64,000 nucleotides of DNA from NCBI RefSeq assembly GCF_014202895.1, contig NZ_JACHHV010000002.1, positions 1 through 64,000 of the forward strand, read 5' to 3'. Numbering within the stretch: position 1 is the first letter of the stretch; the number at the start of each line of letters is the position of its first letter. A program made the translations under genes and the position numbers. Below, one piece after another: positions 37,450 through 59,641 of this stretch. Under the pieces are notes generated by a model. The model had not been told where the DNA came from and ran no database searches. It worked only from the letters and a program-made list of their open reading frames with translations. The DNA is from Lactovum miscens (GTDB lineage: Bacteria > Bacillota > Bacilli > Lactobacillales > Streptococcaceae).

Positions 37450-37519
37450 TTATCTAAAACTTAAACCTTTTTATCTAAGACTTAGGTCTTAGTATAACTA
37501 TCATGAAATCTACTATACT
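37450..37519 (+). promoter_or_regulatory. regulatory region of sRNA candidate 1
   Basis: Tandem boxes 21 bp apart: TTATCTAAAACTTAAACC (37450-37467) and TTATCTAAGACTTAGGTC (37471-37488). The second forms the palindrome CTAAGAC-TTAG-GTCTTAG (37475-37492). The -10 TATACT is at 37514-37519, with no -35 consensus; the palindrome ends 21 nt before it, as expected for an activator-dependent promoter. The same layout recurs at the second copy. Confidence 0.65.
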
Positions 37520-37524
37520 TGTTC

Positions 37525-37608
37525 TTGTAGGTGATTCCGACACCTACAACTCCTAAATAACTTTTCATAAATTACTCCTAAAAAGACTTGGCTTATGCCA
37601 AGTCTTTT
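37525..37608 (+). ncRNA. candidate small RNA 1 (anti-SD type)
   Basis: Predicted transcript of about 85-90 nt starting near 37525. A 5' hairpin (TTGTAGGTG, loop ATTCCGA, CACCTACAA; 37525-37549) is followed by a single-stranded linker with two copies of CTCCTAAA (near 37550 and 37575), complementary to Shine-Dalgarno sequences, and a rho-independent terminator (AAAAGACTTGGC-TTAT-GCCAAGTCTTTT). There is no start codon with a ribosome site and no open frame. A paralogue lies at 38884. The design resembles streptococcal csRNAs, but homology is not claimed. Confidence 0.7.
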
Positions 37609-37766
37609 AATTTAATGGAGTAAAATTTAAAATCAGTCAGTCTTCATATTGATGTATATAAACACAATCTTATAACATTGGATAATAATTAATTATACGG
37701 ATAAAGACTTTTTAATAAATAAAAATATTGAAATTCAAAAAGTTGCACTTGAAAATTTTCACAAAC

Positions 37767-37804
37767 TAAAAATACACCTCCCGATTAGGAAAGTTGTATT
37801 TTTA
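37767..37804 (-). terminator. terminator of the short-chain dehydrogenase gene
   Basis: TAAAAATACA (37767-37776) and TGTATTTTTA (37795-37804) form a perfect 10-bp stem about 60 nt after the dehydrogenase stop. Confidence 0.65.
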
Positions 37805-37862
37805 ATGTCATCACAGAAAGATTTAATGGTTGTAAACTTGTTGTAAACCTTATTTACACATT

Positions 37863-38684
37863 TTAAATGTGTTTCAAAACAAAATCAAGTCCTTTACGCC
37901 AAAGTTTCGGATGTGCCTTCGCAACGCGTACCATCATTCGATCGCCTATTGAATGATAGTAGCGAAGTTCAGGTTTTGAAGCCGTTGCAGCCTTGTAAAA
38001 GTCTTGAGCCAGCTCTGCAGAAGTTGGGCCTCCCTTATAAACGCGTTCAAATCCTTTTTTCACCGTTGCAACAAGTGGTGCATAGGGCGAATCCGCTTGA
38101 AGATTTTTCTCAGCATTTTCTAAAGCGATGCTATTCCAATCTGACTTCGTGCTACCAGGATTCACACAGACTGAATGAATGCCAAATTGTGCAACCTCTG
38201 TGTCAAGCACATCTGACCACTGTTGAATTGCAGCTTTTGTAGCGTGATAATAAGCGCCTAAAGGCGTGTAAACATAGCCACCAACACTAGAAATGTTGAC
38301 AATTCGACCAAAGCCCTTTGAACGCATAGTTGGTAAAATTAGTTGTGTCAATTCAACAGCACCAAAGAAATTCGTTTCAAATTGCTTACGAATATTAGCC
38401 ATTGGAATTTCTTCAGCTGGCCCATACTCACCATAGCCCGCATTATTAATTAAAACATCAATTTGCCCCTGCTCTGCTAGAATTCGATCAACAAAGGCCC
38501 GATTGCTTGCAGAATTCGTTACATCTAGAGCTAAAGGAATAATTCCCTCATCCGTTGGAATCTTATCAACCCGTCGTGCTCCAGCATAAACAATCCAATC
38601 TTTGCTCGCAAACAATTTTGTTGCTTCTAAGCCCATCCCATTTGATGCTCCAGTAATAGCAACCACTCTCGAATTATCCTTCAT
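37863..38684 (-). CDS. short-chain dehydrogenase/reductase
   Basis: 273-aa classical SDR. The cofactor motif TGASNGMG is near residues 11-18, NNAGYG follows, the catalytic Ser is in NISSVGG, and the active-site Tyr and Lys are in YYHATKAAI. There is a C-terminal extension of about 25 residues (AKAHPKLWRKGLDFVLKHI in parts). AGAGG lies 7 nt before the ATG. It is a single gene lying between the two small-RNA copies, which run on the opposite strand. Substrate unknown. Confidence 0.88.
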   Translation of the reverse strand: MKDNSRVVAITGASNGMGLEATKLFASKDWIVYAGARRVDKIPTDEGIIPLALDVTNSASNRAFVDRILAEQGQIDVLINNAGYGEYGPAEEIPMANIRKQFETNFFGAVELTQLILPTMRSKGFGRIVNISSVGGYVYTPLGAYYHATKAAIQQWSDVLDTEVAQFGIHSVCVNPGSTKSDWNSIALENAEKNLQADSPYAPLVATVKKGFERVYKGGPTSAELAQDFYKAATASKPELRYYHSIGDRMMVRVAKAHPKLWRKGLDFVLKHI

Positions 38685-38809
38685 ACTAAGCCTCTTTTTC
38701 TTTTTATAAAAATATTTTTGTTAGTTAATAAAAGTTCAGAAAATGTAAACTAAGATTATCAAAACTTTTTCAATAGCCTTTATACTAGTTCATTTTAGCA
38801 TAACTTTTC

Positions 38810-38879
38810 TTACTTGAATCTTAAAATATTTTATCTAGGACTTAGGTCCTATAATGAATAAATTTAAAAAAGTTATACT
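38810..38879 (+). promoter_or_regulatory. regulatory region of sRNA candidate 2
   Basis: A degenerate box TTACTTGAATCTTAAAAT (38810-38827) and the main box TTATCTAGGACTTAGGTC (38831-38848) are again 21 bp apart. The palindrome TAGGAC-TTAG-GTCCTA spans 38836-38851. The -10 TATACT is at 38874-38879. The distance from the palindrome's left end to the -10 (39 nt) equals that of copy 1. Confidence 0.65.
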
Positions 38880-38883
38880 GATC

Positions 38884-38981
38884 TTGTAAGTGATTCCGAC
38901 ACTTACAACTCCTAAAAATTTTTCATAAATTACTCCTAAAACGAAAAAAGCTTGGCAACATCAAGCTTTTTTCGTTTTTTT
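38884..38981 (+). ncRNA. candidate small RNA 2 (anti-SD type)
   Basis: Paralogue of the candidate at 37525, about 95 nt. The 5' hairpin TTGTAAGTG / ATTCCGA / CACTTACAA (38884-38908) has the same loop and one compensatory pair change (G-C to A-U) against copy 1. The linker again carries CTCCTAAA twice (near 38909 and 38934). The terminator is a perfect 14-15 bp stem (ACGAAAAAAGCTTG at 38941-38954 with its complement at 38962-38975) followed by TTTTTT; it differs in sequence from that of copy 1. Confidence 0.7.
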
Positions 38982-45013: not shown

Positions 45014-45219
45014 AAAAAGACGTCCAAAGGCGCCTAGAATGATTTTATAATTTATTCATATCATCTAGCGCCAAGCCGAAGCTCGAGTGATACAGATATT
45101 TTCCGCATCCCCACGACTGACAAATGCCTTTGTCCTCGTTCGGCAATGGTTACCTTTCAGCTGAATCTTCGAATGCCTCCTCATCAACTTACTCATTTAC
45201 ATTGCTACCTCTATGCGCT
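45014..45219 (-). promoter_or_regulatory. lysine riboswitch with terminator/antiterminator
   Basis: Minus-strand leader of dapA. The aptamer (about 45219 to 45067) has L-box features: AGAGGTAGC near the 5' end, GAAAGGTAACC, TTGCCGAA, GGCATTTGTCAGTCGTGGGG in part, and TCTGTATCACT. P1 is AGCGC with GCGCT. The P1 3' strand (45060-45072) can instead pair with 45029-45043 as an antiterminator; when P1 forms, AGGCGCC (from 45035) pairs with GGACGTCT (to 45018) and is followed by TTTTT, a terminator. This is an OFF switch. A further hairpin (44984-45003) precedes the dapA ribosome site. Confidence 0.9.
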
Positions 45220-45220
45220 G

Positions 45221-45249
45221 AGTATAACATTTTCTATTTCTTCTGTCTA
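45221..45249 (-). promoter_or_regulatory. promoter of the lysine operon
   Basis: Minus-strand -35 TAGACA (45244-45249), 17-bp spacer, -10 TATACT (45221-45226), placing the start at the 5' end of the riboswitch P1 helix. Confidence 0.8.
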
Positions 45250-59418: not shown

Positions 59419-59616
59419 TTACAAAATCTTCTTCATCTTTCGCTCAAATTCCCAACGGCTCATCATTATTTCATGTTCACAATTTGAGCAACGAAGTTTT
59501 ATGTCAGCACCGAGGCGTGTGATCTCAAATCTGTTGGCATGTTTTCCTGTTGACTTTATCTTACAGGCATGAGGTTTTTTCATTTCAACGAAATTTCCCA
59601 AGTCATAGCTTTCCAT
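59419..59616 (-). CDS. DUF951 zinc-ribbon-like small protein
   Basis: 65-aa protein of the DUF951 family: YDLGNFVEMKKPHACK at the start, RFEITRLGADIKLRCSNC with a CxxC pair, and a basic tail. The start MESYDLG is chosen because GGGAG lies 7 nt upstream. It lies between rexA (26 nt gap) and ychF, a conserved position in this group. Function unknown; a nucleic-acid or zinc-binding role is inferred from the CxxC and the basic end. Confidence 0.88.
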   Translation of the reverse strand: MESYDLGNFVEMKKPHACKIKSTGKHANRFEITRLGADIKLRCSNCEHEIMMSRWEFERKMKKIL

Positions 59617-59641
59617 AAATTTCTCCCAATAAATTGCAAGT

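Follow-up and report, generated by a model that had tools for sequence, protein, structure and literature searches.

The 64,000-nt window from Lactovum miscens (the whole stretch of DNA that was analysed) contains two paralogous small RNA (sRNA) genes on the plus strand, at about 37525-37612 and 38884-38980, either side of an SDR-family gene (37863-38684, minus strand; Pfam adh_short) that is a context marker outside the unit. This locus raises the question of which RNA family the two genes belong to and which regulator controls their transcription.

Architecture of the two sRNA units

Both copies share the same order of elements, all on the plus strand: a 16-bp palindrome, 22 bp, the -10 element TATACT, a 9-bp hairpin, a linker of ~31 nt and an intrinsic terminator. 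In copy 1, the palindromic LiaR/CesR-type box TAAGACTTAGGTCTTA (37476-37491) stands 22 bp before TATACT (37514-37519), and the transcript predicted from the fold, the Rfam family RF02379 and the covariance model R1 described below covers 37525-37612, with its start placed within ~2 nt. It comprises the 9-bp 5' hairpin TTGTAGGTG-ATTCCGA-CACCTACAA (37525-37549), which shows two-sided changes relative to both copy 2 and the genome G004, an anti-Shine-Dalgarno/anti-start linker CUCCUAAA ... UUUUCAUAAAUUACUCCUAAA (37550-37582) with CUCCU predicted to be unpaired, and a terminator with a 12-bp stem followed by TTTT (37581-37608). The corresponding elements of copy 2 are the palindromic box TAGGACTTAGGTCCTA (38836-38851), again 22 bp before TATACT (38874-38879), a transcript predicted on the same grounds (38884-38980), the 9-bp hairpin TTGTAAGTG-ATTCCGA-CACTTACAA (38884-38908), the linker (38909-38940; CUCCU unpaired with p 1.0) and a terminator made of a long stem and a T-run (38940-38976).

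With one exception, the features ascribed to this locus in the preliminary description were recovered, including the shared palindrome at a fixed distance before TATACT, the 5' hairpin with its identical loop and a compensatory change (a G-C pair in copy 1, A-U in copy 2), a linker motif present twice (CTCCTAAA at both linker ends in each copy, with TTTTCAT between them), terminators of unrelated sequence, and the lack of an open frame (no plus-strand ORF of at least 40 aa overlaps either unit). The exception is a second box 21 bp upstream, which had been assigned to both copies. In copy 1, a direct repeat of the main box at 37452-37470 (plus strand) matches it at 14 of 19 positions (~6e-5 per position) and is a possible secondary regulator site, whereas in copy 2 the match of 7/19 equals chance and no equivalent site exists, which rules out its conservation in both copies.

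The predicted folds are markedly more stable than those of shuffled sequences (z = -9.2 for copy 1 and -8.5 for copy 2), and leave the CUCCU sites of both copies single-stranded with p 0.98-1.0. Comparison of the copies by segment identifies the box and the RNA body as the conserved parts, since identity is high in the RNA body (56/60), the box (14/16) and the -10 element (6/6), and low in the promoter spacer (12/26) and the terminator (22/40). These two sites are the only ones in the window that match the palindrome with up to three mismatches (three strand matches; 0.68 expected), which makes it a rare sequence there. In copy 2 the palindrome overlaps a TATAAT at 38848-38853, so that transcription could also start within the box or be repressed there.

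Kinship with the csRNAs

Among 4227 Rfam families, the csRNA family RF02379 is the best for both copies, with scores of 34.5 and 31.7 bits (E 0.025 and 0.085), neither of which reaches the gathering threshold of 57 bits. The csRNAs have two stem-loops, a UCCUAAA motif after the first stem, and an unpaired region with anti-Shine-Dalgarno and anti-start sequences (PMC3091779); the same anatomy is found in the window RNAs, and the comparison with streptococcal csRNAs that had been drawn from the sequence thus holds. The predicted folds of both copies place two stem-loops around an unpaired region that carries CUCCU twice and CAU once, and the [A/C]UCCUAAA[A/C] motif, as taken from PMC3091779, stands directly after the hairpin (CUCCUAAAU, 8/9; CUCCUAAAA, 9/9). 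A covariance model built from streptococcal box-csRNAs only (R1) retrieves the two RNAs as its top matches in the window (E 6.2e-6 and 9e-5; next 0.15).

Further traits common to the window RNAs and the csRNAs of Streptococcus (RF02379; PMC3091779, PMC8186281) are the presence of several paralogues per genome and A-T richness. The window RNAs differ in that they score below the Rfam cut-off, belong to a host outside Streptococcus, and have a loop ATTCCGA and a second CUCCUAAA that are features of the host genus. The main difference lies in the promoter, where the csRNA-defining CiaR repeat NTTAAG-N5-TTTAAG ~10 bp before the -10 element is absent in both copies and a LiaR/CesR-type palindrome is found at 22 bp instead. 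Because this defining box was tested and is absent, the window RNAs should not be filed as Cia-dependent. The LhrC sRNAs of Listeria monocytogenes (PMC4132741) are likewise multicopy and are induced by envelope stress through a two-component system, but their regulator LisRK is of a different class, and the resemblance is functional only, with no sequence relation seen.

A LiaR/CesR-type promoter

The preliminary description left the activator open between a LiaR/CesR and a CiaR type, and the sequence favours the former. The VraR, LiaR and CesR motifs are reported to lie 32-34 nt before the transcription start (PMC6560143), in agreement with the window boxes, which end ~34 nt before the predicted start, of which 22 nt separate the box from the -10 element. 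Relative to the CesR motif TCAGHCTnnAGDCTGA (PMC4447274), copies 1 and 2 deviate at 3 and 5 of the 14 specified positions, the boxes of the units L004 (genome G002) and L005 (genome G004) deviate at one position each, and streptococcal box units often have A2, G3, G10 and C14. The spacing to TATAMT is exactly 22 bp in both window units, L004 and L005.

A genome scan for the box before a -10 element found only four exact matches to box-N22-TANNNT in the 1.76 Mb genome; they precede sRNA copy 1, ftsH, a Bax1-I-family gene and an operon encoding PspC and a DUF4097 protein (genes identified by Pfam; ftsH named from its sequence). Copy 2 retains this geometry with two mismatches to the pattern. A liaF-liaS-liaR operon is encoded in the genome, its own promoter reads TCAGCCTTATGGCTGA-N21-TAAAAT, and LiaR is the sole LuxR-type (GerE-domain) response regulator present. 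The box of the Bax1-I-family gene (L093, ~1500, minus strand), 22 bp before its -10 element, is kept in G004 (L199), and ftsH has a box at the same spacing (L101, 1501-1544); both genes are predicted from these promoters to be new members of the LiaR regulon.

The PspC operon offers a link to published regulons. We take SMU.753 to be pspC. The promoter P_SMU.753 is one of those behind the Streptococcus mutans LiaR motif (PMC4447274), and SPV_0803, a putative phage shock protein C, belongs to the pneumococcal regulon (PMC6560143); the PspC operon is thus a known kind of LiaR target. The window units have the same box and spacing as the PspC operon of their own genome, and they have the 16-bp TCAGnCTnnAGnCTGA-type palindrome 32-34 nt before the start that is typical of the LiaR/CesR/VraR regulon in S. 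mutans (PMC4447274), S. pneumoniae and Lactococcus lactis (PMC6560143); the published members of that regulon, unlike the window sRNAs, are protein-coding operons.

The same palindrome might be read by a regulator other than LiaR, given that the window boxes are degenerate, that LiaR binding is a prediction, and that LiaR of S. mutans needs a longer 25-bp motif including a left A-tract (PMC4447274). Such a tract is found left of the palindrome in most streptococcal units and in G002 and G004, and the window copies have only its mirror-image T-tract. We consider control by such a regulator improbable, as the PspC-operon promoters have the same box and spacing and the genome offers no other GerE-domain regulator. 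The lack of a CiaR box, the LiaR-type box with its spacing, the occurrence of this box at targets of a known LiaR type, and the single LuxR-type regulator all lead us to prefer LiaR/CesR. The window RNAs are thus quite probably two csRNA-type sRNAs with promoters of the LiaR/CesR (VraR) envelope-stress regulon and not of CiaR, as judged from sequence.

Distribution in the Streptococcaceae

A pattern combining the csRNA motif, the -10 element, a spacing of 20-23 and the box was searched for in 337 Streptococcaceae genomes, one per species. It occurs in 42 of them, as against two hits for the reversed-pattern control, and a stricter version of the box-csRNA pattern occurs in 11 genomes (control 0). 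An initial scan for streptococcal boxes had allowed a spacing of 21 only and was therefore an undercount. Three of the 42 genomes belong to the host genus, 38 to the genus-level group g4, and one to group g9. Group g4 is taken as Streptococcus because it contains most species of the family, as well as the csRNAs that score above the Rfam cut-off. The g9 match (L157) has neither a terminator nor CTCC and is taken as chance.

When 35 units were tabulated, 34 proved genuine, and all of these combine CTCC and CAT with a terminator. The box stands 21 or 22 bp before the -10 element, which is TATACT in 31 of the 35. In five streptococci, a DUF4097-like gene that occupies the PspC-operon position is preceded by a similar box at 21 bp; the strict LiaR box was not found at streptococcal liaFSR promoters. 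Neither the window unit on plasmids nor the streptococcal unit on phages gave a match.

The syntenic orthologue of copy 1, L005 in G004, adjoins the same SDR gene (80% amino acid identity along most of the protein). Its promoter retains the box and reads TCAGTCTAAAGTTTGA, N22, TATAAT. In its stem a further pair is changed on both sides, and there is one one-sided change that yields G-U. The check set for the reading as functional RNAs, that related genomes should contain homologues whose stem covaries, was thus passed, albeit on a small sample. These data also bear on the view that the window genes are silent, decayed csRNA copies. Their transcripts are predictions and their terminators have diverged in sequence, as decay would allow; the two-sided changes nevertheless keep the stem pairs, the -10 element and box are kept while the spacer is free to vary, and intact orthologous units exist in two other species, which makes decay extremely unlikely.

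Coexistence with the CiaR wiring

The genome encodes a CiaR orthologue (recognition helix VVEVYMSKIRKKL versus VVEVYVSKVRKKL) and two more csRNA-like genes with CiaR-type repeats, L107 on contig 44 (~1553, minus strand) and L108 on contig 17 (1513-1591, plus strand), and thus CiaR and LiaR-type wirings coexist in it. The contig 44 csRNA lies near a T-box leader-like match of 89.4 bits, just under the Rfam cut-off of 93. At L090 (1063-3116), outside Streptococcus, a CiaR orthologue adjoins a histidine kinase; CiaH homologues have been reported only in streptococci (PMC3091779). The range of csRNA-like RNAs with CiaR boxes extends far beyond Streptococcus and includes Lactococcus taiwanensis (L006) and the host genus, where L023 and L059 have the same type of 5' hairpin as the window RNAs and, as read from their sequences, CiaR boxes.

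It could accordingly be argued that the window genes are ordinary CiaR-dependent csRNAs whose CiaR boxes have drifted: the RNA body is csRNA-like, CiaR is at hand, and the sister RNAs L023 and L059 are wired to it. Yet TTAAG-N5-TTAAG 9-11 bp before the -10 element is absent in both copies and in all 35 tabulated box units, and a different palindrome stands at a fixed distance and is kept in orthologues, so that we regard drifted CiaR control as highly unlikely. The host-genus hairpin occurs under both promoter types within the genus and is missing from the streptococcal LiaR-box units; this distribution suggests, from few cases, that promoters have been exchanged more than once.

In G007, G033 and G023, some canonical CiaR-type csRNAs have, 20-21 bp before the CiaR repeat, a palindrome that resembles the LiaR box (e.g. 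TCAGACTTTAGACCGA). The csRNAs concerned are at L033 (~1430-1514), at L034 (~990-1072 and ~1430-1514), and at the same place in L055 and L032. With both boxes at a fixed spacing, these csRNAs may integrate both signals under dual control.

Proposed mode of action and significance

From the promoter and the fold we infer LiaR binding, induction by envelope stress and translational repression. Envelope damage would be sensed by LiaF/LiaS, and phosphorylated LiaR would bind the palindrome, whose centre lies ~42 nt before the start, and activate a promoter that has a TATACT -10 element and no good -35 element. The resulting RNA of ~85-97 nt would be protected by its 5' hairpin and terminator, which would also keep the linker single-stranded, and the linker, with its anti-AUG CAU and two anti-Shine-Dalgarno CUCCU sites, would pair with AGGAG-N6-AUGAAA starts and block the ribosome, in the manner of a csRNA.

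Beyond this locus, we find it somewhat more credible than not that the Streptococcaceae have a second, undescribed csRNA regulon, in which LiaR takes the place of CiaR, promoters have been exchanged repeatedly and some csRNAs have both boxes. To date the csRNAs have been regarded as the sRNAs of the CiaRH system, and because the CiaR box was the starting point of the searches for csRNAs, units under other regulators were bound to be missed. A full-text literature search covering few subscription journals yielded no paper on csRNAs under LiaR, CesR or VraR control, and LiaR is not mentioned in the csRNA review PMC8186281; the LiaR/CesR-type branch is likely new to the literature. Tolerance of bacitracin, bacteriocins and daptomycin-type drugs is governed by the envelope-stress response under LiaR; if the proposal is correct, this response would include, in dozens of species, RNAs of its own that block translation. 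The csRNAs would then provide a clean natural case in which control of one sRNA family has switched between two stress regulators while its pairing core stayed the same.

Candidate targets

The linker is computed to form an unbroken duplex with UUUAGGAGUAAUUUAUGAAAAG. A genus-wide search for perfect complementarity to translation starts gave two non-sRNA matches in the window genome and two for the reversed control. Among 118 start regions, representing part of the genome, the top candidate target inferred by pairing lies in L221 and encodes a membrane protein (18/20 complementary; -23.7 kcal/mol). Feedback on liaR translation was considered as well, the liaR start region ranking 6th of 118 in the window genome, and was dropped because G004 does not preserve this pairing. 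Within the window, the start TTGGGAGAAATTTATGGAAA of a gene for a 65-aa protein (59610-59629, minus strand) is complementary to the linker at 17 of 20 positions and is a weak candidate. Elsewhere in the window, a lysine riboswitch aptamer is found at 45058-45221 on the minus strand (63.9 bits).
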